Assembly: GCA_964036295.1 (NCBI GenBank)
Contig: OZ038468.1
Location: 1,510,001 to 1,574,000 of the forward strand
Length of the DNA stretch: 64,000 nucleotides
Source of the DNA: Plumapathes pennacea
Taxonomy: Eukaryota > Cnidaria > Anthozoa > Antipatharia > Myriopathidae
Reading direction: 5' to 3'
Shown here: positions 24,901-58,800 of the stretch, piece after piece
Layout: each line of letters opens with the position of its first letter
How positions within the stretch are numbered: the first letter of the stretch is position 1
The notes under the pieces: generated by a model
The model's input: only the letters and a program-made list of their open reading frames with translations
Databases searched by the model: none
What the model was told of the DNA's origin: nothing
Translations under genes and position numbers: made by a program

Positions 24901-27900
24901 ATTTTTGCTTGGGTTCAAGCTGGATAAACTATGCAATCTTTGTAATGTGACTCATAAGATCTATACAATCATGGATTGATCATCAAATGCTGTACTGTAC
25001 ATTATATAGAGGATATTACACGGCGGCGCGAAGATATGAATTTTATTTTGGAGTGGCAAAAATAATATTTTACGAACGAGCGCTTCGCGAGTGAGTAAAA
25101 TATTGTTTTTACCACGAGAAAATAAAATCCATATCTTCAAGCCGCCGTGTAATTTTCTTTTTATTATATTAGATACGAGTGTTTTACGAGAAATTGCACA
25201 AACAACCATGCAAAAGCGGGAAATGATGCCAACGATATCCTCACTAGTGAGGATATGGAAAATACACCACTCGGGTCCCGATGTAGTTTCGTATGGATTT
25301 TACGCATGGTATATTTTCCAGTAAAACACTCGTGTCTATATAATAAATATGCTGTATACTTTCAGGGTGATGACACATTCTTGCTATGGTATGGAGAGAT
25401 CTGAATATTGAATGACATTTCACCAGAATTAATAATTCTTTGTTAGGTACCCCAGTGAATAGAGTTCCCATAATGGCTAAGCAGACCCTGGACTTGTTCA
25501 AGCTCTTCCAACTTGTTGTAGACAAAGGAGGACTAGTTGAGGTTGGTGCAATTAATATATATAGCTTTGAATTTTGACTGATTTCCTGCAGTATTGCTAA
25601 GAATAGCAAATTTATTAAGCATTGATCACTTAGGTAGCTTAGTGATCCTCCTTGTTTCACCCCCTCCCCTGCCAACTCCTCTTCGAGGCATTTAGAAATT
25701 TCATGCTCTCCCCTTGTCTTGGCATTTGACACCAAGGAATGTGTAGTGGGAAATTTGTTGCCAAGAGGAATTTGTCTAATACAGAAAATTACATCCAAAC
25801 AATATTACCCAAGACAAAGACAATAAAGATTAACAAGGGTACGTATACATTTGAGTCCTTTTTATTTGAACAAATACGTGCACCTTTCATCTACAAGATT
25901 AGTTACAGAGGAACCTCAATATAAGGAAGGCCAAGGGTCTGGGGAAATGTGTTCGTTATAACGTTTTTTTTTTATATATTATATTATATACTATGCAGCA
26001 TGCTAGTTTGAACTGATCTTGGTTTGAAAATGGCTCCACACATCACATGTGGGAATTTGAACAACTTTTTGGGAAATTCATCGTTTTGTTGCCATTTAAT
26101 AATTTCATTATTTCCTACGGTAAATGTCCTCGCGTTCTGATACTCGCTTTTGCGAAATGAAAATGAGATAAAAAACATAATTTTGAATCGATTCGGTGGG
26201 ACCAATCGAGAACGCAGGTTTCGCAGACATAACAGAGATATTTACTAATTTAAATTTAACAGCAAAGGTTTATCGGTCAAACTTTCAGTTTGAATAATCG
26301 GCTGCTCATATCGCGATGGTCAAAACGCGAGTCGTTTTGGTTCGTATGTGTCAGCCAAAAAATTAACAGGGACTCCAAACGTTTTCAGACGGCGTAATAC
26401 GTTGTGGCTAAAGTTTCTGTCCCATAAAAAAATGTTGCTTGGAGTTGCCTGTGTACGGACGTGTGAAATATACTGATATTCCCGCGAACAAATTTAGAAC
26501 ACAATGATTGTGAATGACTGCGATCTTTGTGAGTGGTGTTTTAAACATCTTGGTAGATAGAGAAGTAGGGTCTAGATACTGTAGATAGACAAAAATCAAA
26601 GACTGCAAGGATTTTAGGTGTGTAGATAGGAAAGGCAAGTGTGGAACGGCTTGCTTTTAGATTGGACCACTTAAAAACAACGTTTCTTTCTTTGAAGGTC
26701 ATAAACAAAAAAATCTGGAGGGAGATTATTAAAGGCTTGAATCTTCCTGCATCTGTCACAAGCGCTGCATTCACTTTAAGGACACAGTAAGTGGAGTTGT
26801 CCATAATGTGTGATACATGTCTGGTGAGGAAGAGAACGGAGAAATTGAAGTTAATTATTCCTGGGCTTAGCTTTTAAAGCATGATTGCCTGTGTACACGT
26901 ATACCCAAGAGATCGAGAGGTGAATTTTGCTTTATCCTGAATCCAAGCTGTTCAAAGTTCAATTAGATGAAACGTGGCTTTGTATTTTAATCAAAACTCT
27001 GTACTTTGCTGGCAACTAATTTGACAGCAAGAATTTGGTTTATCCTGGGTCAGGGTTTTAGGCCCAAACGTTAAAGAACAACTGCAAAGAAAAAGTGCGC
27101 TTGATTCACGGAGCTTTGAAGCTTTTATTTTTCAAAATTTTCTTCTGGAAGCAAGATGGCGTACTTTCGATTTGTGTCGGCGCGAGATCGGAAAGCAATC
27201 GGTGTGACGACACAATTATCCTGAGCGATTCTGTATCCCGAAATCAAACAAAGTAAAGACGTGTATTATCTGATTTTTCTTGTAGATACATGAAATACCT
27301 TTATCCGTATGAATGCGCGAAGAGGAAGCTTTCCACTCCCGCCGAACTTCAAGCAGCCATCGACGGAAACCGAAGGGACGGTCGGAGAACGTTCGGCGCG
27401 TTTTCGTCGCAAGGCTCGGTAGCAGATGGAGCTCACGGATTTGGCAGTCCCAGTCCCCCTCTGTCCTCCTCGTCCTTTACTGCAAACCATTCACCTACTA
27501 TGGTATCTGTACACAGGACGAGTCCTGGTCCCTTGGCCACGCCCACGGATGAGGTACAGCCTTTTTGTAGTATGGTATCTCGTGCGTTTGCCTTGGCTAT
27601 CTTTGCATGCTTCTATGCCGTCCCTTTCTATCTGTCTGTGGAGTGATTGTATCTGTGAGAACTAGGCTCGGCGTGAAGATAAAACAAAGTTAGTGCTTGC
27701 TCCGACGCTCGAAACAACAAAATATTATGTCTCTGTACTTGCAACGCAAAATGTTCGAGACACTTCCAAGAAAAGCTAACATTCATATTTGTGTTTCCTT
27801 TGCTTTCAGTACACTGTAGAATTGTGTTAAGTCTGAACAAATTTCCTTCTCTCTTTCAATTTTGACACTGTGTAAGAGCTTTTGTGGCTCAAACAACATC

Positions 27901-29562
27901 GAAATAGGGTCAAGGAGAGAAAACTAGCAGGCAGGTCCAAAATTGAGGAAAGTGCGTAAAAAAGAGTTTCAGCTACTTTTACACTGATTTGGGTCTATGT
28001 CAGAGTTTGTTCACTTCGTATTATTTATGGTCACGTTATAGCTTCATTTTGTTCCTCCTAGGTTCTGGTTCCACCGTCTGTCCATGGTAACAATGGTGTC
28101 GCTGTCTTGCATTCTCCGGGCGTGATACACCGTTTAAATCCCGAATACAGCCCGAAGCATTCTTCGCCCGTACCAGGCGTGGTTGCACAGTCACCAACAG
28201 CTCGTGACCAGTCTCCTAGCGGATCCCCGGTCAAGAAGTTTGCGTTAAGCAATGAACACGATGTTGGAACAGAACGGCAACATTCGTTCACCAAAATCAA
28301 AATAGAAACACCGAATAAGGGTATGTGTTCTGCGTGTGTTTGTAACGTGCAAGGCTGTGTTGCGTCATCTTGTATACTTTAGTTTGCTCTTTGTTGTGTT
28401 GTACTTTGCTGTGCTGTGCTGTACTGTACTCTCAGGGTTCGTACGGGTCATGGAAAACCTGGAAAAGTCATGGAATTTTCGAATTTCATTTTCGAGGCCT
28501 GGAAAGTCATGACATTTAAGTGTGGGTCATGGAAAGTCATGGAAAATGACGTTCATTGTACGAAATAAATTTCTTGTGAATGAAAAAAAGCGAAATTGAG
28601 TCGGGAAACGGACAGTTTTCGATAATTTTCAAAAAGAACTGGTCAACATCAGGTCATGGAAAACTTTAGAAGGTCATAGAAAAGGTTATGGAAAGTCATG
28701 GAATTTCAAAAGACCAAAAGAGTACGAACCCTGACTCTGCTGTGCTGTGTTGTGTTTTATTATATAAACACGAGTGTTTTACTGGAAAATTACCGTGCGT
28801 AAAATCCATACGAAACTACATCCGGGACCCGAGTGGCGTATTTTCCATATCCTCACTAGTGAGGATATCGTTGGCATCATTTTCCGCTTATGCACGGTTG
28901 TTTGTGCAATTTCTCGTAAAACACTCATGTCTAATATAATAATAAGAAAATTACACGGCGGCGCGAAGATATGGATTTTATTTTCTCGTGGTAAAAACAA
29001 TATTTTACTCACTCGCGAAGCGCTCGTTTGTAAAATATTGTTTTTACCACTCGAAAATAAAATTCATATCTTCGCGCCGCCGTGTAATATCCTCTATGTA
29101 TTGTACTTTGCTGTGATGTGGTGTGCTGTGGTGTGCTGTTGTGTTGTGTTGTGTTGTCAGTGTTTTTTTTTTGTACTGTGTTGTATACTGTACTGTGCTG
29201 CGTTGTGTTGTGTTATGCCGTGGCGTGGCGTGTTGTGCTGTGCTGTGCTGTGTGTTGTGTTGTTCTCTGGTCCTAACAGTAATTATGTTGCAGATAGACG
29301 AGTTTACTACTTAATGCCTTCAAATGATAAACGTCAATTTTTTTTTCTTGCAGCCTCGTTTACTTCTCTCAGCGTCAGCAGCACTAGCCAGTCACCAGAC
29401 CCCTCATCGACGCGCGGTCGAGACCAGCGCCAACTTCCCCTGACCCATGTAGATCACGTGAATGAAAACTCTCTGTTGGTATCTGTAGAGCTGAACGGCA
29501 CTGAATATCAGGGGGTCCTCTTCGCACGTCGCAGGGGCCGCTCAGGATCATCTCACGAGTAA
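18988..29562 (+). CDS. ARID3: ARID3 / dead-ringer transcription factor
   Basis: ARID3/dead-ringer proteins bind AT-rich DNA in the nucleus and control development. Coding exons: 19004-19111 (start assigned at ATG 19004 in an exon opening at 18988), 20867-21214, 24561-24633, 25447-25541, 26698-26786, 27286-27553, 28062-28320, 29354-29562. All phases agree and give 482 residues. The extended ARID domain begins at EWTFEEQFKQ and continues as LYELGNESGRKEFLDDLF, FMQKRGTPVNRVPIMAKQ, VINKKIWREIIKGLNLP, TSAAFTLRTQ and YMKYLYPYEC (about residues 143-268). The C-terminus carries a REKLES-like strand motif (SVELNGTEYQGVLFAR). A SUMO consensus (I-K-I-E, residues 406-409) lies between. The N-terminal 36 residues are the least certain part: the acceptor at 18987 is good and phase 0 joins exon 2, but I recognise no homology there. 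The introns hold several transposon insertions. Confidence 0.9.
21215..24560. other. ARID3 intron 2 (3.3 kb)
   Basis: Very AT-rich, with no open frames of interest. It contains a C-rich MITE copy (22915-23227) and a GATT run near 24180. I see no gene on either strand. Confidence 0.6.
22915..23227. mobile_element. C-rich MITE with ATAAGCCCCCC motif
   Basis: ATAAGGCCCCCCACCCC on the left, ATAAGCCCCCCT inside and on the right, ending AGCATTTACG, the complement of the CGTAAATGCT terminus seen near 41228. Confidence 0.45.
25005..25340 (-). mobile_element. Bipartite double-palindrome element, copy A (reverse orientation)
   Basis: Outer ends are TATAGAGGATATTACACGGC and its partner ending CACTCGTGTCTATA. 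One half is a hairpin built on TTACACGGCGGC ... AATATTTTAC, the other on CACGAGTGTTTTAC ... GTAAAACACTCGTG. Three further copies lie in the window. It is in an ARID3 intron. Confidence 0.75.
28434..28732. mobile_element. MITE with CAGGGTTCGTAC termini
   Basis: The ends are CAGGGTTCGTAC and GTACGAACCCTG, flanked by a direct ACTCT on both sides. The interior repeats variants of GTCATGGAAAGTCATGGAAA. It split a TGTGC-type microsatellite, which resumes at 28735. Confidence 0.7.
28763..29097 (+). mobile_element. Bipartite double-palindrome element, copy B
   Basis: Same structure as copy A in forward orientation: ACACGAGTGTTTTAC arm, the 16-bp palindrome TCCTCACTAGTGAGGA, the return arm, then the TTACACGGCGGCGCGAAG hairpin. 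Confidence 0.75.
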
Positions 29563-37200: not shown

Positions 37201-40200
37201 AAGAGTAACAGTAGCTGACGTTTTGAGCATTAGCCCTTTGTCAGAGCGAATGAGAGGATTATGGGTAAAGGGGGTATAAATATGGAAGAAGCTGACCTCA
37301 GAGGAAAAGCATGAATTTTTTGATTGGCTCCTGTAGAGAGGGCAACCAATCAGAACTTGGCTAGAAGGTTACAGAGCTACGAGAAAGAGGCGCTCATTGA
37401 TTCTGATCGACTCTGTCCTGGGCCTGCCTAGCTATCAATCAATCCATGCACTATAGAGTCTAGACACAGAACATAAAGATCTCCACTGGTTATCTAACCT
37501 ATACGGTTTGTTCTTCCCTCCCAAGCAAAACAGACCGGAGATCACAGACTTGCGGAGGAAGGCACTCTCCCCAGTCCATCAGATTTCCTGACTGAGCAAG
37601 CGAGGAGGAATGGGCACCAGTGTCACAAGGTGTACCGACTGACGCCTGACGGTCTCACGGTTTGTGAAGATACACAGCTCCGTCGCATTGTTGCATCAAC
37701 GCGGAATATTGACAGCAATTCTGAGGTACAGTCTTTTATCTCATCTAGACCTTGTTGGGTGTGGAGAAATTGGCAGGTTATCTCTTGCTTGGGTTCAAGT
37801 TGATCAGACTATCAATTCTCCTAACAGTACTCATACATTTTGTTCAGGGCAGGTTGGGAGAATTAGGTGATCTCTTTCTTGGGTTCAAGTTGATCAGACT
37901 TTCAATTCTCCTAACACTGCTCATACATTTTGTTCAGGTCAGGTTGGGAGAATTAGGTGCTCTCTTGCTTGGGTTCAAGTTGATCAGACTTTCAATTCTC
38001 CTAACACTGCTCATACATTTTGTTCAGGTCAGGTTGGGAGAATTAGGTGCTCTCTTGCTTGGGTTCAAGTTGATCAGACTTTCAATTCTCCTAACACTAC
38101 TCATACATTTTGTTCAGGTCAGGTTGGGAGAATTAGGTGATCTCTTGCTTGGGTTTAAGCTGATCAGACTTTCAATTCTCCCAACACTACTCATACATTT
38201 TGTTCAGAGCAGGTTGGGAAAATTAGGTGATCTCTTGCTTGGGTTCAAGCTGGTCAGACTATCAATTCTCCTAACACTACTCATACATTTCGTTCAGGGC
38301 AGGTTGGGAGAGTTATAATTTAACTCCTTCATGAAAGCTGATTGATTTATCAATTCTCACAACATCATATGTATAGTTTCTAGACAGGTTGTTGAGGTCC
38401 CCTGTGACACAAGTTGTCGAGAAAATTGTACAGTGTAACAGCTATGGACTTAACTTTATGCGTTTACTTTTCAATAGCTTGTGGATTGGAGGAAACTTGA
38501 CCGGCAAGTGTCGCGGTCATTGCCGCAGTTTGCACGAGACTGGGAGGAGTTGGGGAGACGCGTCAAAAAAACACCACAGTGGAACAGATTCAAGTGGCTT
38601 TCAATGGACACAGGTAAGAAAAGAAAGGTTTTCATCATCGTCTTCATCATCATCATCATCGTTGCCTTCATCATAATCATCGTCATCATCATCGTTGCCG
38701 TCACCAACATCACCGTCATCATCGTCATCATCATTATGGTTGCCTTCATCATTATCATCATCTTTGTTTCAACGATAAGTAAATATATCTTACTTTCAGC
38801 ACTATTTTAGCGTGATTTTGCCGTAATCATTAGCCTTCGATCGATATTTTACACATTTTCAACATTTATTGTAACCGGACAAAAACGATTGTTTAATGTT
38901 AAAACTTTCTTCTTCAGATGAAGTTACGTCTGTCACCCCCACAATTACCGAAGAAGCAGGAAATAAAGAACACGATGAGGATGACGACCACGAGACAGAA
39001 ACCAAAGTTAAGAGCACTTCAGGTTTTGTCGATGCAGAGATTGGTCTCCGACCAGGTGACTCCGTTCGCATTCCCCTGGGAAACGACTTCACCGATGTAC
39101 GAATCAAATTTGTTGATTTCAGACATCGCCACTTAAACAAGAATCGCTGGCAAAAACGATTGTGCCGTGTACTGAGCAATATTTGTAATGGAGGGAGTTC
39201 GATTGTGAAAAGCACGTCAACGTTTTTTAAGCAGACCTCGATGGGAGATCGCTTCATCAGAATCAAAGTACATTCTGATGAACGCTTTGTTAAGAAGCAG
39301 CTCCAAGGTCACGAGATAAGATTTCAAGTTGAACTTTCTGGACGCAAGTCTAGCGCAGTTATCGTAATAAACTACGGGATCATCCTGAAGTCTCAACAGT
39401 TAAGACGAGGTCGCTCGGTCAACTCTGACCATTTCTTTGGCGTGCCTCACGAGGAGTTGTTTCCAGACTACCGGCAGCACCACAACGGACAGTGTTTGAC
39501 GGGATCTGGAGCTGTGGCCTGGGCCATGGTCCTTGGTTACTATGGCAACTTGGCACGTCGTGCGCCGGAATTGTAAGTACCTTCACTCTGTATGTGCTTT
39601 GCGTGTGCGCGAGTGTGCGTGTTCGTGTATGTGTGCGTGTATCCGCGCATGTGGGATCATTAGATAACTTGGCTTTTCTGCTTGGGTGTAGTGAGACGTA
39701 TCCGGCCTCCATAATAGTGCGGTTTTTGATTGAAAACCGAAACCAAAGCAATCAGCTTTCTGCTGCGCTACCGCACCTATCTTGGTGGCTTATGTTTGCA
39801 AAATAAAAATCTCAAAAATTTTCCGGCAATTTTTTTTCTCGTTTTTCGTTTCGCGTCTTTCTTTTTGGAGAAATTCGGTTTAGAAAATACTCAGAAGAGA
39901 CCAGGACGTCCACAAGCGGTGGTACATGTATTCTGAGTGTTACGTCTTGTATTATGACACCATCCCGTATCTCATTTTGCGATTATGAGCATCAGACCTT
40001 ACAATTCTGGGACGCCTTTCAAAAACTGAGATTTATCGTGATGGTATCTACAACTTCAACCTTAACTTCTTAACGTCATAATTTCTTTTCAACAACAAAG
40101 TCTGACCATTCAAATGAAAACTGATTTTGAGGACGTTCACATGGGCACAGTTTGTGTTGTAATGTCAATAATTATGCCATATCTTCACTCGAGGACACTC

Positions 40201-40799
40201 AAGGACAAGAATACGAGGACACTCAAGTTATTGTAGATAAACACAATAACACTGGAGTCAAATGGTTGACAAAAATTTGTTTTCGTCTTTCTAGAAAGTT
40301 GAAGTTTACCATGACTAGTAGAGCGGCCTCTCTGCCCATAAACACGACGAGAAAAGTGGAACGCTTTACGAACACGATTTCCAAAATCCTGGACACTCGC
40401 TGCACCAAGGAAGGCGCGGGAGTGACCACACCCGGAAACATGAAACGAATCAAGAAATGGGTTCGAGAAAACATGCAGCAGGACTTGCCGATTATAACGC
40501 GCAGGGAAAACGCCGAACGGAACTCATCTACCGCCACATTGTTAGTGAAGCTGCTGAAGGAAGGCGTTCCCGTGATTATTAGCAAGCAGAGAGATGACGC
40601 GAATCATCATTACGTGGTTGCTACGCGACTGCGGCAGCGGTCACGCGTGTACCGCGCGTGTGACGAGACGCGGGGCACGTGTTCAGGCTGGACATTCAGT
40701 ACTGTCTCAGAAGTGTTTGTCCACCAAGGACTCGGCAAGTATGGAAATTGGTGGGAAAACGCTGACACCCACTTCGTTGCGGCTTTAATTGCTCACTAG
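34238..40799 (+). CDS. Predicted type II membrane protein with papain/C39-like Cys-His domain
   Basis: Exons 34238-34467, 36828-37063, 37526-37725, 38478-38613, 38918-39572, 40295-40799 join in phase and give 653 residues. A charged cytoplasmic N-terminus (about residues 1-50, KMDDDACDEEIVIFDEARR) precedes one membrane helix (FIVLLLLVLLVGFLVVYLV, about 53-71); no cleavable signal is seen. The middle (about 80-440) is unrecognised and includes an acidic Thr/Ser stretch. The C-terminus has a cysteine-peptidase-like pattern: GQCLTGSGAVAWAMVLGYYG around Cys460, as in C39-like/papain folds, and NHHYVVATR (His590/591). An ENADTHF motif near the end could supply a further polar residue. I infer an extracellular peptidase or amidase-like ectodomain; no substrate can be named. 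The other reading is a non-catalytic papain-fold protein. The start is chosen because the frame opens there with a conventional leader and a good donor. Confidence 0.75.
35530..35556. repeat. Poly-G tract
   Basis: A run of about 21 guanines after GGGGATG in the first intron of the gene at 34238-40799. It is a candidate quadruplex and a likely sequencing-length artefact site. Confidence 0.8.
36652..36686. repeat. Poly-G tract, interrupted
   Basis: Two long G runs separated by one A, 140 bases upstream of the exon at 36828. Confidence 0.8.
37745..38325. repeat. 90-bp minisatellite, about six units, derived from the TTAA MITE
   Basis: The unit (TTGGGAGAATTAGGTGATCT, then CTTGCTTGGGTTCAAGTTGA, TCAGACTTTCAATTCTCC, CTCATACATTTTGTTCAG) repeats with a period of 90 bp and few changes. 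It is the reverse complement of the MITE interior (TTCTCCCAACC ... GAGTGATGTAG ... TCAATCAGC). Because 90 is divisible by 3, it stays open in one frame and mimics a hydrophobic repeat protein. Confidence 0.85.
38630..38768. repeat. (ATC)n microsatellite
   Basis: Impure CAT/ATC trinucleotide run in the intron after the exon at 38478-38613. Confidence 0.9.
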
Positions 40800-42868: not shown

Positions 42869-43322
42869 GTAACTGAGGAAAACGAATTAAACAAGTTCTA
42901 ACATTAATACTTACAATAAGCCGACCGCTATTCAGTGTTCTGGATGCAAGAAGCAGTTGCCAACTAACGAGTTCTGGTCTTAGGAAATTATTGGGAGCGC
43001 CAAAGGAATTCCACGTTAATCGCAACGTATACGAATGTACTAACACTAATATTGTCTCTCGATTTACAGGCTTGGAGGATATTTTTTTTATGAAGCTGGA
43101 GCTTCTGTCGGTGAGCTGTGAAGTTTACAATACAAGCTTTGATCTAGGTACCTGTAGGCAGCAGTTCTGGCGTTCATTGTTAATTATTAACTAGTATTAA
43201 TTATTTACCGTTTACAAGCCTCACCTATGTTTGTGTCAAGAAATTGCAAAACACCATTTGAGTCCCGGCGTTACAGGTGAATGTTTCCTCGTCTTCTGCT
43301 GAGTGTGCAAGAAGGAGAAAAA

Positions 43323-46297
43323 ATGGGATTTTTTCTTGCCGTGCTTACGTTTGTGACATGTTTCCCTATCGTTCAAACAAGTAAGTATTTGACTGGCATT
43401 TTGTCGTAAGCGTAGCTTTAGGTTCGCTAGGTGCATTGCTAGCTTTTGGTATAAAGTTGAAATGATTAAAGGAGACCTTCGGCCAATTTTAGACTAAGAG
43501 GCGACTCTCGAAGCACATCCGAAAAACAATACGGCTGGATCAGATGCTCATTTTTTGGCGACTCGAGGATCATTTGTTTATCAAAACAATTCGGAAGGCT
43601 TCGAGCAGCAGCTTCAGAACTGCGCTCCCTTAGAGATCGAAAACAACCGCACCTATGCTGTTTTCAAATTTTATACGCGCAACGTTAAAACGACTAAAAT
43701 CGTGTCCATGCAGAGGTCGGAATTGCCCAAAATGAAGTCGCGTATATTCTGCGAGTCTCCAATGTTAATAAAATATTGAAACGTATTTTGCAGAAAAATC
43801 TTTCGTTGCTATCATCAAATAGTAAAAGAGCGGCTCTGAAAAAGTAACAAACGCCAAAACATAATTAAATCCCAGGTTAACATATTTTTGTTTTGTTTTC
43901 CGACGGTCCGGTGTCAACCTTCTCGGGCATATCTGCGAAACAGCTCGATTTGTATCGACGAGTTGTCGCGATACGATGCTGCGCTAAAAATCGCCGATTT
44001 TAACGGTTAAGTGTAGAATTGCGCATCTCGTATTAGTTGTGCCGCAACGTTGCACTAAGGTTCTGGTTGCATAACACCTGCATATTTTTTTTACTGCGCA
44101 TGCAAAATTGTCGCTAAAAATGGACAGGTGGCGATTCGTTTGATAGGGTAAGGCCAAGTTTTATTGACACGACTTATTTTGCTCAATAGTAGACATCGAG
44201 TATGGCATAAGCCCACAGCTACTAGAGGATAAACTCGTTTAAGACTTCGATGTTTCTAAATATCAGTCGCTTTAACATCGTACAGGTTTACTCGAAGGGT
44301 TACCACTAATCTAAAAAAAAATCTCAAAAAATATTTTCCCCAGAACAAGCAAAACTTTGGATTATTTTAGCTATTACTATTCCGGAATACGGTCAATCGA
44401 ACACACCCTTAGTCTCAGCCAATTCACCAATTCAATGTTATCATACAATTACGTTTCGATGTCAGGCGAAAGTGTTCAAATTTAGCTTTATTCCCACAGC
44501 AACCCTCCCATCTTTCCAGGACCTGAAATGGAATTACCCAGGCGACACACAATATGGCGGGGCGTACGATAAAGACAAACTTCTTGAACTATCTGGTCTG
44601 AGCGAAAGCTTCAGTGACATAAACGACACATGCCCATTACGTATGAGCTTAGCCTTAAACTACATTGGATGGCCACATCAAATAATAAAGTCACGAGTGA
44701 GGCTCCTTCCTGAAAGCTCCAACCCGCTCAATGGGACCGCTGGCTTGTTCTTCTTTAAAGAAACCGATGGAATAGTGAGGTAGGTTTTTCGACCACTGTA
44801 ATACCAGCTAAGTTTCTTTCATGCTAGGCAATGACACCGATATGAGATCGTTGCAGCCTTCATACTAAAAACAGTAAACGTTTTCTTAGATTGATCTTAG
44901 ATCCACTTTAGCATCTCGGTATGAACGCGCGCTAACAAACTTAAATATACAAGTCATGGCAGTAGAATCGGTAGTCGTATTTATAATACAGACGACTTAA
45001 GTTCATCTGGTATCAAAAAGACACGAACTTAATTTGTTTCTGCGTCTGTTAAGTACGACTGAAAGACACATTAGGAGACGTGTAATTCGTCCCAGACGAA
45101 TTTAGCTTGCATAAAAGCGAGTTGGTGAACTAAACGCCCTTCATAGAGCACTTCTCTCCGATTTTCAGCTGGCTGCGTCAGGCTTATGGAGAACCTGTCA
45201 TCTCAAATAACACGCGAGTGTTCAACAAGAAGCAAGGGATCATGTTTCTGAAAGTGGACAATGAAAACGCAAACTGTGCAGTTCTCTTGTGGGATGGAGC
45301 GGGGTTCCATCAAGAGCGAGGCTTCATGAAACACAAAAACTTGCGGGAAGTTGTATTCTGGGAGACGCCAACCAGTAAGTTGTCTCAAAATGCACATTCT
45401 CTTAACTTATAAATGATGTAGTGAGAATTGATAGTTGAATCTGCTTTCATTTGAGCAAGCTATCAAAAAGCTAAGTTCTTCTTACTATATCATAAGATAT
45501 CTCTGGTGAGGAACTGAATGAAAAAGTCACTCTTGCTACTTTGACGATCATTATAGTTTGTTTGATAACTTTTGCACTCGTTTATTTAGTATGTTAGTTA
45601 TTTCTATTATGTACCTATTATACATGTTTTATTATATAGACACGAGTGTTTTACTGGAAAATATACCGTGCGTAAAATCCATACGAAACTACATCCGGGA
45701 CCCGAGTGGCGTATTTTCCATATCCTCACGAGTGAGGATATCGTTGGCATCATTTCGCGCTTTTGCACGGTGGTTTGTGCAATTTCTCGTAAAACAATCG
45801 TGCCTAATATAATAAAAAGAAAATTACACGGCGGCTTGAAGATATGGATTTTATTTGCTCGTGGTAAAAACAATATTTTACTCACTCGCGAAGCGCTCGT
45901 TCGTAAAATATTGTTTTTACCACTCGAAAATAAAATTCATATCTTCGCGCCGCCGTGTAATATCCTCTTGTAGTTAACAAATTCGGTCCAAGACAGTTAA
46001 CTATACTGTAGAATAACACTTATAATGTTGTTGCTGTTGTTGTTGTTGTTGTTGTTGTTGTTTGTTGTTGTTCGTTTTCCTCGTTTCCTCAGGTGGTTGT
46101 GGCATTGATCTGAACTTGAAACAGTCCACGTGTTTCCCAGGTAAATCTTCAGTTGAATTGTTTTCTGGAGAGAAGATTGCCATGGAAAGTCTGAAAATTG
46201 GAGATCGCGTGAAAACATTCACCGCAGATGGGAAGATTGTTTACAGTCCAATCATTACTTTCTTGGATCAGATGCCAGATTATGGAGGTACTCGTTG

Positions 46298-46353
<56 letters not shown>

Positions 46354-47226
46354 ATGCACAGGAACACAACACAGACACAAACGCAAACACACATACATAT
46401 ACACACACATGTTGTCAGCAGAAAGGACATTCTAGGCAACAGGACACATGATCGAAAATTGTGGTAAATGGACAAAACAGTTCAAGTGTTTTACTCCCTG
46501 GAGTGATAAACTTAAGTTTTCTCCTTTAGTTTCTCATACATTTGGTTGGGAGAATTTATATTTTGAGCTTGAAAGTGAAGAGATTAAGCCACTAAAGTCC
46601 AAACCATGATTATACGTTAATTTTGGATTAGGTTCAAACTTTTTTTTTTTTCAACCTGATAATGGAAGGTTTCACTCAGCCCTCTAGCACTAGCCCTTTG
46701 TCTGAGCAAAAAAATACGGTTTGATATTCTGTATTTATCTTCTCCAGGTTATTACTACACAGTAATTGCAGAAAGCCAAACCAACGTCACCCTCAGCAAA
46801 GCTCATCTTATCTTCAGAAAGGAACCGTCCCGAGGGATAAAAGGCTCCCTTGGGTTTCACACCGCTCGCGCTCTCTACGCTTCTGACCTCCATCCTGATG
46901 ACGTCATCTTCGTTTACTGCCCCAAAACCGGCGCAATCGTGTCCCGGAGGGTCCTTGCGGTGTCACTGGCCGAGGAAAAAGGAGCCTATGCGCCGGTCAC
47001 AGAGGAGGGGACCTTATTAGTTAACGGGGTGTGGGTCTCTTGCTATGCGGACCTTGGTGATCACCACCTGGCACATTATTTGATGTCGCCTTTGAAGTCT
47101 TTTTACGGCTTGGCACCTCGGGTGCTAGGTGCAGGTGGAGGGTACATGCACGGGTATCTCAAGGGAGCTCTGCGCCCTATCGGAATGAAACTCTTTGGAG
47201 AGGACAAGTTTTATAGGGAGCCATGA
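43323..47226 (+). CDS. Predicted secreted Tae4-like amidase domain fused to Hedgehog-type Hint/Hog domain
   Basis: Exons 43323-43380, 44500-44779, 45169-45374, 46093-46287, 46748-47226 join in phase: 405 residues. Residues 1-19 are a signal peptide (MGFFLAVLTFVTCFPIVQT). Residues about 25-181 match the Tae4 family, bacterial type VI secretion effectors that cut peptidoglycan peptides: NDTCPLRMSLALNYIG (nucleophile Cys64), NKKQGIMFLKV, LLWDG and EVVFWE follow the family order. The usual GHxDLWDG is CAVLLWDG here, so the catalytic His position is Ala150. Residues 195-405 are a Hint domain of Hedgehog type: CFPG at its start, LKIGDRV, SKAH (His266), GAYAPVTEEGTLLVNG and VSCYAD. A tail with GGYMHGYLKGALRPIGMKLF resembles the sterol/adduct-recognition end of Hog domains. 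In Hedgehog this module cleaves before the Cys and esterifies the released N-terminal part; I infer the same may release the Tae4-like part here. Tae homologues (dae genes) are known in some eukaryotes; this fusion is new to me. Confidence 0.85.
43555..43779 (+). other. Open frame in first intron of the Tae4-Hint gene, unrecognised
   Basis: A 74-codon frame with protein-like composition (FEQQLQNCAPLEIENNRTYA, VFKFYTRNVKTTKIV) but no ATG start, no recognised domain and no evident splice partners. It may be a decayed exon. Confidence 0.2.
45635..45968 (+). mobile_element. Bipartite double-palindrome element, copy D
   Basis: Starts TATAGACACGAGTG, ends TGTAATATCCTCT. The central palindrome reads TCCTCACGAGTGAGGA, self-complementary except for one mismatched central pair. 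It lies in intron 3 of the Tae4-Hint gene. Confidence 0.75.
46025..46075. repeat. (GTT)n microsatellite
   Basis: About 15 GTT-like units ending 20 bases before the acceptor of the exon at 46093, effectively part of its upstream tract. Confidence 0.9.
46300..46420. repeat. (GA)n followed by (CA)n microsatellite
   Basis: About 23 GA units and then an ACACAAACGCAAACACAC stretch in the last intron of the Tae4-Hint gene. Confidence 0.9.
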
Positions 47227-55800: not shown

Positions 55801-58800
55801 CTTTTAGCAACATGCTGCCGCAACACGCAACACGAAATTTTGTTGCGTGCGTAGGTAGTAATACGTGAAACACAGGCCGCAACTTGCTATGCAACTTTGT
55901 TGCACAAGTTGCAAGAAAATGTTGCCCATATTACTTCACCTTAAATTTCGAGATGGTGACCCGCTTGGAATCTCCGAATTAGGCGATACTACTGCATTGG
56001 CGTCGTGATTATTACCCTCGCTTCGCTCGGGGAAAATACCTTACGGGGCGAAAATTCAGTATTGCATTTATTATAATTAGAAGATTTTACATAGATACGT
56101 ATTCGATAAGTTATACCTCTAACTACGAAAAATCCAACCTTCCTTGGGTACATTGTCGTATCATCTCTGTAACATTTACACTCTCAGAATGAGTAGTCAA
56201 AACGAATATTACTGTATTAATCTCGAAATGTATGTTTCCCTAAGGGTAAAAAACTACAAATTGGTGAAGAACATTTCATCTAAATTACAACGTGTTGTCG
56301 AAAGCGAAATTCATTAGTGTTTACGATAATAAGCCCTGAATAAAGGCAATATAAACAAGAATAATAAACAGCTATATCAAAATCCTTGAATCCTACGGGC
56401 ATATAGTCTGTAAGTTATCTTATGGAAATGTAATAATTTAGCTAATAAATGCATAGCAAGGGCCGGTTAAACGATCATGACCTAAACAAATAACAAAACA
56501 ACCCGAATACAAATTCTAACCAAGTGTATAAACTCTAACTTGCCTACAAAATACCATACATCAAAACCAATATATTGGCGGTTTTTGTTTCATGGTTTCC
56601 TCCACAGGAAGTCCTAACGGCTACTTTTAGGCAGCACTCTGTTCCGGGATGCTTTGGGCAACCGACTGCCATTGCCTTTCGTTGGCTGATACTTTGGGCA
56701 ATATTTGATGGTGTGTGATTCATCGCCGCTCGCTTTGCAGATAGGGCAGATATACGCTCTCAAAACAGGACATGTAATCTTATAATCTGGACCTTTTAAC
56801 ACGTGGGAAGCGTAGAACTTCTTGCTCTCACCGTTGTTCTTGCAGAACACACACACTTGGCCATTCGCGCTCGGTGCAGTTGCTCTAATCATCGGCTTCC
56901 CGCGTCGACTTGGAGGCAGCATTGCCGCATCTTCTTTTCTCTTCCCCGGAGCTGAACCTTGAAGAACGGACGACGTACTGAACGGCTGAAAAGATCCATC
57001 TCCGGAGGTCAGACCGTGATCAGTGAACGAATCACAGCTTCCAGAAGATGACTTTTCCGAGTCGATGCTGTCATAGCTGTCCCGTCTTGACGGCATTTTG
57101 CCAAAGCCGTTGGTCGCCAGATGATCCAAGTCATTGGCCATCGTCACTTTCTGCACGAGGTTTCTGAGTCCGAAGTAATCGTTGAGCGTGTTGAATTCGT
57201 TCTTCTGCAGCTCATCGTTTTCTGGAGGGCAAGTTAATGACCTTATCTCCTCGTCGTCGGAGTCCAGGAAATTGCTCGGAATCAGAGTCTCCGGCATCAC
57301 TTCACTGAGAGACATCTCGCGGATGGTTGGTCTGCAATGATCCGACGCTGAAAGATTGAATTTCACTCCACTCCAGACGTGCTTCTCCGTAAAACTTATT
57401 TATCGCTAGAGGGCAGATTTGAGTTTGTTTGTCCAGCAAACCGAACTCGCGTGGGAATCAGCGGTAGAGGCCGTGAAACCGTGCACAGTGACGTAATAAT
57501 AGCCTGCATTTTTCTACTTTCACCGGAGGTTACAGTCGAAATTTATTCTGCCTTTGCATTTTACCACTAGAAATACGATAATCGCAGATATCCCCTCGCT
57601 CTGTAGTGGGTTTTCGGAAAGCGGGGTTCTTGTTTATTTTCCGCTTGGAGATTATTTTACTAGAAATACGATGATCGAAGATATCCCCTCGCTCTCTAGT
57701 GGGTTTCGGAAAGCGGGATTTCCATTCGGAGTATTTAAATTTTTTTTGCAAACCACGGCTGTGTAGCGACGTCACCAGTCGGCCGCTAAAAAAAATCTTT
57801 GTCGCACGGCAGTCTCGGTTTAGTTCAGACAACGTGCACAGTCTGTAATTTTCGTAGACACTAGCTGAACGGCTCCAAGATTCGCCGAAACAACATTTAC
57901 ACGCAACTACAGAATACTCCCTAGGCTTGAAGCCAAGCAAAGTCGATCTTGGACACCGAAATGTTTATGGATTTCAAGAAAAGCCGCGATTTCTCCAGCC
58001 AACGCTTTATCCTAACCACATACTTGTATGTTTTTGTTTTTGTTTTTTTGTTTTTTGTTTTTTTTTTATTAATTTTATACGCTTCTTCGAGTGTAACAAA
58101 TTTAGAACCGTCAAAGCGAGTCGCTTGTTTACACGCTTTCGAAGTCTCGGAACCGTGTGAATTTTGGCAAGGATTCAATTTCTAACACAACAACTTTTCA
58201 AACCGCGTTTGACGATTTTAAAATCTTTGACAGAAAAAAGAAATCAAGTCACTAAATAATACCAGGTCCGATTGTATTGAGCGAGCAAACCCGGTCACTA
58301 AATATGTGTTGAGCGAGTAAATTTGGCCACCCACAGACAATAATATACAATAGCCTTCAGAAAACAAAAGCACTTCAACTCGGTTACATTTCATCCTTAA
58401 TACAGTGTGTCAACAAACACGGCGAGAAAACGTCACAGCATGTGTCAGATTGTTAGCGAAATTTATATGCAATGTCAGGATTCGGATGACACGATCTTGC
58501 ACGAAGGCACTCTGAAATAGCTTTTAAAACTAGCGAAAATATCACAATATAAGCCTACTTGGCCTTCATCACAGTTCCCGGGGCATCCGGGGAGGCTCCG
58601 CCCGGACGTTCAACTTACCCTTTCATATACCTCCAGTAAAAACACACCCCTTTTATACGCCAGTCGCATTTTGAATTTTGGGAAGGATTCAATTTTGAAC
58701 ACACCGACTTTTCAAACCGCGTTTGACGAATTTAAATCTTTGACAGAAAAAAAATCAAGTCACTAAATAATACAAGGTCCGATTGTACTGAGCGAGCCAA

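Follow-up and report, generated by a model that had tools for sequence, protein, structure and literature searches.

A Tae4-like domain joined to a Hedgehog-type Hint domain in at least two genes of the antipatharian Plumapathes pennacea

In this work, we have analysed by computation a stretch of 64,000 nucleotides from the antipatharian Plumapathes pennacea (here called the window; C7:1510001-1574000, in an assembly of 290 Mb and 24 contigs), and in it a gene whose product begins with a domain related to Tae4, a family of bacterial amidase effectors, and ends with the Hint domain of Hedgehog and other Hog proteins. The reading that we favour, with moderate confidence and from sequence comparison, is that the genome has at least two Tae4-Hog genes, this one among them, and that these would descend from a single fusion followed by duplication, with an N-terminal fragment that would be released by self-processing.

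Results

An earlier note on this DNA, made from its letters, had claimed that a Tae4 domain of the bacterial kind is fused to a complete Hint domain in an animal gene, and had named profile searches among the checks. In these searches Tae4 (PF14113) is matched by residues 61-177 of the product with 31.0 bits (cut-off 27; expectation value (E) 3e-7) and Hint (PF01079) by residues 190-368 with 144.9 bits (cut-off 29.7; E 3.5e-42), and the Hedge domain (HH_signal) is not listed among the Pfam matches of the product at E up to 1. Among the PDB entries, the Hint half matches Sonic hedgehog (Shh; E 5.9e-22) and Drosophila Hedgehog (E 3.8e-19), and the first half gives a weak match to Salmonella Tae4 (E about 0.008, or 0.002 with the domain alone as query). 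A second line of support for the Tae4 assignment comes from the whole-genome search, in which window residues 11-169 match a paralogue on contig C2 with E 5e-16. Self-cleavage is likely, because all the active-site positions of the Hint are kept (in Drosophila numbering C258, D303, S326, H329 and C400), with SxxH in place of TxxH as a conservative change.

The fusion is borne out not only by these scores but also by a second Tae4-Hint gene (copy B; C2:34041436-34043829, + strand, four exons, 397 residues), whose domain order, strand and phase-1 Tae4/Hint junction are the same as those of the window gene. Its Tae4 and Hint domains score 59.1 and 172.3 bits in Pfam, and the former matches the solved Salmonella Tae4 with E 1.1e-13. 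This second fusion, in which the catalytic Cys and His are both kept, strengthens and broadens the case made in the earlier note. It lies on another chromosome-scale contig. The view that this is a genuine animal gene is upheld, and contamination was rejected, the window lying on a contig of 19.8 Mb with a nanos gene nearby and copy B on one of 37.9 Mb. Likewise, two separate adjacent genes were considered as the principal explanation and rejected on account of the second fusion. We regard it as extremely improbable that a Tae4 gene and a neighbouring Hint gene have been wrongly joined: unspliced, exon 3 meets a stop after about 12 codons and the open frame before Hint exon 4 encodes a short hydrophobic stretch, as such a pair of genes might have, but this frame lacks a Met before the Hint, the same order, strand and phase are repeated at copy B, and chance adjacency would have to occur twice. 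By chance, the 4 complete Tae4 genes and the 6 Hint genes found in the 290 Mb should give about 4e-5 pairs of same-strand neighbours within 1 kb, and 2 are observed.

The catalytic triad of StTae4 is Cys44-His126-Asp137 (PMC3759425), and in the known Tae4 enzymes the third residue is described at two alternative places (PMC6277958). In 38 aligned bacterial rows, two of which (L075 and L077) are one open reading frame (ORF) counted twice, 35 have C in the Cys column and the other 3 a gap, which is C in 35/35 readable rows; in the His column 33 rows have H, one has R, one has N and 3 have a gap, which is H in 33/35. The window copy keeps the Cys (Cys64) and has Ala150 in place of the His, identically in the phmmer and MAFFT alignments; copy B (Cys65 and His151) and copy C, a further Tae4 gene on C2, keep both. 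Two of the four complete animal Tae4 domains in the genome thus keep Cys and His, and the other two have each lost a different one. Because its catalytic His is Ala150, we count the window domain among the Tae4 homologues but not among the active amidases; this copy is probably a pseudo-amidase, and the antibacterial action that the earlier note inferred as one possibility is not supported for it. Copy B is likely, but not certain, to be an active amidase. By count in a highly variable loop, the third-triad positions of the window copy are Gln161 (at the spacing of StTae4 Asp137) and Leu152 (at that of SmTae4). It seems to us very unlikely that the window copy has kept amidase activity through another base, such as His160, ten residues past the lost His. 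This residue, placed by count, adjoins the position of StTae4 Asp137 (PMC3759425), and the two different places of the third residue in Tae4 enzymes imply some freedom in the site (PMC6277958), but the usual place is occupied by His in all the readable bacterial rows except the two noted.

The other Tae4 genes of the genome form a series with the two fused ones. Copy C lies 12 kb beyond copy B and encodes Tae4 only: it has the same signal-peptide exon as B, its Tae4 part is 85% identical to that of B and ends in a stop codon at the place of B's splice donor, and it is without the segment of about 1.4 kb that carries all the Hint exons of B, the difference being a single clean indel that ends 11 bases past the Hint stop. 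A third C2 copy (copy A) is truncated, and no Hint of its own was found. In the Tae4 part of B and C (176 codons), the ratio of nonsynonymous to synonymous substitution rates (dN/dS) is 0.40 (bootstrap 0.22-0.69), which suggests purifying selection. The remaining complete gene lies on C4 (about 6989580-6992950, minus strand, three exons, 55.1 bits for Tae4; L024, C4:6984001-6994000), and the 30 kb around it hold no match to the window Hint. Its catalytic Cys is replaced by Ser, its His is kept, and two cysteines follow shortly after the His.

Phylogenetic analysis places the window, B and C domains in one Tae4 clade, with support 96/89 in a tree of 36 rows and 93/91 in one of 19 rows. The larger tree, rooted at its midpoint, holds 31 of the 38 bacterial rows and the Salmonella piece; L059, L071, L072, L075, L077, L078 and L080 were dropped from it as truncated or duplicate, and L027, L028 and L040 (by choice) and L067 (below threshold) had been left out earlier. 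Matches occurred in 13 of 398 and in 13 of 369 genomes, and the bacterial rows were drawn from these. The animal clade sits among Tae4 proteins of the class of Serratia, its nearest bacterial row by path being L061, and the window domain is very divergent (end branch 1.77). The C4 gene is placed apart from the clade (p-value of the approximately unbiased test (p-AU) 0.27; its place is unsure), and the 19-row tree brings all four complete animal genes together with support 41/4; a single bacterial transfer for all four is neither shown nor rejected by these trees. Pattern searches gave 1 relative among 102 pattern matches in the bacterial collection; in the viral collection, the 116 and 1 pattern matches included no relative. 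Two individual genomes from bacteria of the Serratia class (G519 and G693) carry many Tae4 matches (8 and 5), some of which are fragments.

The divergence of the window domain raises the question of whether this paralogue is in decay and has no role at present, which we consider unlikely. The lost His, the long branch and the change of Thr326 to Ser would agree with decay; however, its five exons are open, its splice sites are canonical, its Hint positions are kept or conservatively changed, and what decay looks like in this genome can be seen in the truncated copy A.

The genome-wide Hint search gave at least 8 exon matches, which by our reading belong to at least 6 genes, both counts being lower bounds as the search scored the best candidates. 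The set comprises two true Hedgehogs (on C3 and C4, with HH_signal at 114.8 and 118.4 bits), a WSC-like Hog gene on C10, the two Tae4-Hog genes and one divergent gene, also on C10. A phase-1 intron stands directly before the Hint in 5/5 modelled Hog genes (the two Hedgehogs, the WSC-like gene and the two Tae4 genes), the donor site of the C4 Hedgehog having been chosen by eye. In the window and B genes, the Tae4 region has a phase-1 intron on each side. In the terms used for metazoan exon shuffling, a module flanked by phase-1 introns is of class 1-1; on these gene models Tae4 is such a module, and the phase-1 introns are a setting for exon shuffling. At the general-base position of Asp303, both copy B (L019, C2:34042787-34043829) and the C10 WSC-Hog gene (L021) have His, and the two look like natural cases of the D303H swap engineered in the Drosophila Hint, which is reported to be still active and to accept a wider range of sterols (PMC9163320). 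The N-terminal part of the C10 Hog gene (L021, C10:2238001-2248000) is WSC-like with 24.7 bits, just below the cut-off of 27.8, and perhaps of the type of Nv 120428 and Acm DY579185, with conserved cysteines. The sixth gene (L054, C10:1891558-1891953, +) is divergent, with 56.1 bits for Hint over one exon, and was left out of the Hint tree and the tail test.

In the tail test (ten pairs among five Hog genes), the C-terminal tails of the window and B products match with a z score of 5.7 (0/500 shuffles); the C3 and C4 Hedgehog tails give z 5.1 and the C10 and C3 tails z 3.5. The simplest reading of the trees and tails would be one old fusion with a tail of its own, then duplication, and then loss of the Hint in copy C. 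Two independent Tae4-Hint fusions are conceivable, but the shared tail favours one.

Several observations weigh against a single fusion with a self-processed product and an enzymatic copy. Nothing is resolved in the Hint core tree of seven rows (window with B, p-AU 0.503), and the Hint-internal introns of the window and B genes lie at different positions, so that the case for a single fusion depends on the Tae4 clade and on the tail. The residue preceding the cleavage Cys is Thr in the window product and Val in B, as against Gly in Shh and Drosophila Hedgehog; in the true Hedgehog on C4 it is Tyr, likewise not Gly. The window or B tail compared with the Hedgehog and WSC-Hog tails gives z -0.5 to 1.4. 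The tail of the window product, described earlier as Hog-like, fails to match the two Hedgehog tails of the same genome (z 1.4 and 1.3), and a tail of the Hedgehog sterol-recognition type, which in Hedgehog selects cholesterol, was not found in this comparison, so that the adduct on the N-fragment may or may not be a sterol. Concerning the active site, 2/35 bacterial rows are also without the His (Arg and Asn; L062 and L068), and the third-triad positions of copy B are, by count, Ala and Gln, with Asp at neither, so that its amidase activity is not certain. Finally, the truncated copy A gives dN/dS of 0.30 with B and 0.36 with C, ratios that resemble the one between B and C, which would thus partly reflect shared history.

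The gene model proposed earlier proved exact, with in-frame splicing of five exons from a start at 43323 to an end at 47226 (+), canonical GT and AG sites at each of its four introns (phases 1, 2, 1, 1) and a product of 405 codons in which all the motifs quoted earlier are found (Table 1). Residues 2-17, in exon 1, have a mean hydropathy of 2.3, the signal peptide having been called by eye, and an upstream in-frame ATG is present at 43281. The predicted N-fragment has N-glycosylation sequons at three places (residues 61, 97 and 126), the first of which adjoins the former nucleophile position.

Table 1. Parts of the Tae4-Hog gene, in window positions
Feature	Position	Strand	Content
Exon 1	43323..43380	+	Start codon, probable signal peptide (MGFFLAVLTFVTCFPIVQT) and phase-1 donor GTAAGT
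Exon 2	44500..44779	+	Tae4-like domain, first part; nucleophile position Cys64 kept (NDTCPLRMS)
Exon 3	45169..45374	+	Tae4-like domain, second part; catalytic His position is Ala150 (NCAVLLWDG)
Intron 3	45375..46092	+	Phase 1, at the Tae4/Hint boundary; 76-nt inverted repeat and TGT microsatellite
Exon 4	46093..46287	+	Linker, then the beginning of Hint; self-cleavage predicted before Cys195 (T/CFPG, cleavage at the stroke); general base Asp240
Exon 5	46748..47226	+	Remainder of Hint (SKAH with His266; SCYAD with Cys345), C-terminal tail common to C2 copy B, stop codon

The arms of the inverted repeat in intron 3 (45815-45890 and 45894-45969) are 83% complementary. A repeat encoding similar peptides (DTSVLLENIPCVKSIRNYI or parts of it, by eye) occurs at window positions 45620-45975, 25244-25804 and 28768-29562, the first of these copies lying inside intron 3 together with the inverted repeat. 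Downstream of the Tae4-Hog gene, at a distance of about 9 kb, is the nanos gene (56614-57396, minus strand; zf-nanos 86.5 bits), and about 2.5 kb upstream of the Tae4-Hog gene, on the same strand as it, lies another gene (38875-40799). The second ORF of the latter (HHYVVATRL ... CDETRGTCSGWTF) recalls, by eye, a papain-like or C39-like cysteine peptidase; neither of its ORFs matched Pfam, and the second had no PDB match.

Discussion

We propose that a Tae4 gene was acquired from bacteria, as seems likely. It then probably acquired an exon for a signal peptide, came to be flanked by phase-1 introns and was joined to a Hog exon in a single event. Duplication of this fused gene would have given the window copy and copy B, and a later copy, copy C, would have lost the Hint; both steps appear likely. 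On the secretory path, the Hint would probably perform an N-to-S shift at Cys195, and cleavage before this residue would likely free an N-fragment of about 175 residues, which might carry a C-terminal sterol or other adduct and stay on cells or mucus, although this last step is uncertain. Copy B, with its Cys65 and His151, would be an enzyme cutting peptidoglycan, and the window copy, in which the Cys is kept and the His lost, would not be an amidase but a binder of peptidoglycan, a decoy or a signal. Our leading guess for the role of these proteins is defence, because of the analogy with tick Dae2, a domesticated amidase effector (PMC11347951).

In comparison with the Tae4 effectors of the type VI secretion system, the window gene has a homologous domain over the Pfam cut-off with the nucleophile Cys kept (PMC3759425, PMC3852654, PMC6277958). 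Unlike them, it has introns, a start like a signal peptide, the fusion to Hint and a lost His, and copy B is nearer to the known Tae4. The domestication of tae genes in eukaryotes (Dae) was reportedly described by Chou and colleagues in 2015. As with Dae, we would be dealing with a bacterial amidase effector taken up by a eukaryote, the window gene being an intron-bearing eukaryotic gene nested among bacterial Tae in the midpoint-rooted tree. To our knowledge, no Dae is fused to a self-processing domain. Another acquisition of Tae4 by a eukaryote is reported in Giardia muris (PMC7641422).

As described for the Hedgehog and Hog proteins, the window product has a likely signal peptide, a variable N-terminal domain and a Hint with Cys258/Asp303/His329/Cys400 (PMC2362128), and like the Hedgehogs of this genome its gene has a phase-1 intron before the Hint. 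It differs from Hedgehog in its N-terminal domain, which is Tae4-like and not Hedge, and in its tail. The 2008 survey of Hog genes describes in Nematostella, as we find here, two true Hedgehogs together with Hog genes that have other N-termini; three of these carry novel N-termini, of which two are nearest relatives of one another, and for the cnidarian N-termini it argues for divergence and not for domain acquisition (PMC2362128). The Tae4 family was named after that survey, and for this reason the two mutually closest Nematostella genes may be the same Tae4-Hog genes, unrecognised, which would lower the novelty of the gene and not that of its reading. The survey also notes that the Hog tails of C. 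elegans differ from the sterol-recognition region and are hence named adduct-recognition regions (PMC2362128).

Hint and SuFu are thought to be derived from bacterial toxin systems (PMC3482391), and it has been proposed that Hedgehog arose when a bacterial Hh/DD-peptidase was transferred to a cnidarian ancestor and joined to Hog (PMC6027127). As in that proposal, a bacterial peptidoglycan peptidase has here come together with Hog (PMC6027127). The two cases differ in that the peptidase folds are unrelated and that the bacterial kinship is more visible in Tae4-Hog. Tae4 has the NlpC/P60 fold, and the peptidase of the Hedgehog proposal the LAS/M15 fold.

Could the N-fragment be a signalling ligand and not a means of defence, a wall-peptidase fold without catalysis that is processed by Hog, as Hedge may have become? 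We hold this to be rather doubtful. The catalytic His has been lost while the Hint active-site positions are kept with one Thr to Ser change, the C4 paralogue has likewise lost an active-site residue (Cys to Ser), and the Hedge exons of this genome's Hedgehogs are weakly Peptidase_M15_3-like (17.4 and 18.2 bits, below the cut-off of 23.2), all of which would favour it; however, copy B retains Cys and His, and the divergence of the window Tae4 domain fits relaxed constraint too. A broader idea, which we offer tentatively, takes in both copies: Tae4-Hog may be a second invention of a Hedgehog-like ligand, in which a wall peptidase was captured once by Hog via phase-1 introns, one copy remaining an enzyme and another becoming a catalysis-free, self-processed and adduct-bearing secreted protein of signalling or recognition.

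That Hog genes gain new N-termini (PMC2362128) and that Tae4 has entered a eukaryote (PMC7641422) is already known. Among the open-access papers searched, which leave aside most subscription papers and all preprints, we found no paper containing both 'Tae4' and 'hedgehog', and a wider open-access search of titles and the starts of abstracts gave none on a Tae4-Hint fusion among the matches listed.

What does this fusion mean for the biology of the Hog genes? The origin of Hedgehog is an old open question, and in the present case Hog has been joined by a different wall-peptidase fold from bacteria. A single genome offers a series made up of a fused copy with Cys and His, a fused copy without the His and a copy without the Hint. 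With this series it can be tested what a captured enzyme gains from the Hint, and whether an effector that acts against bacteria can become an anchored or signalling protein.

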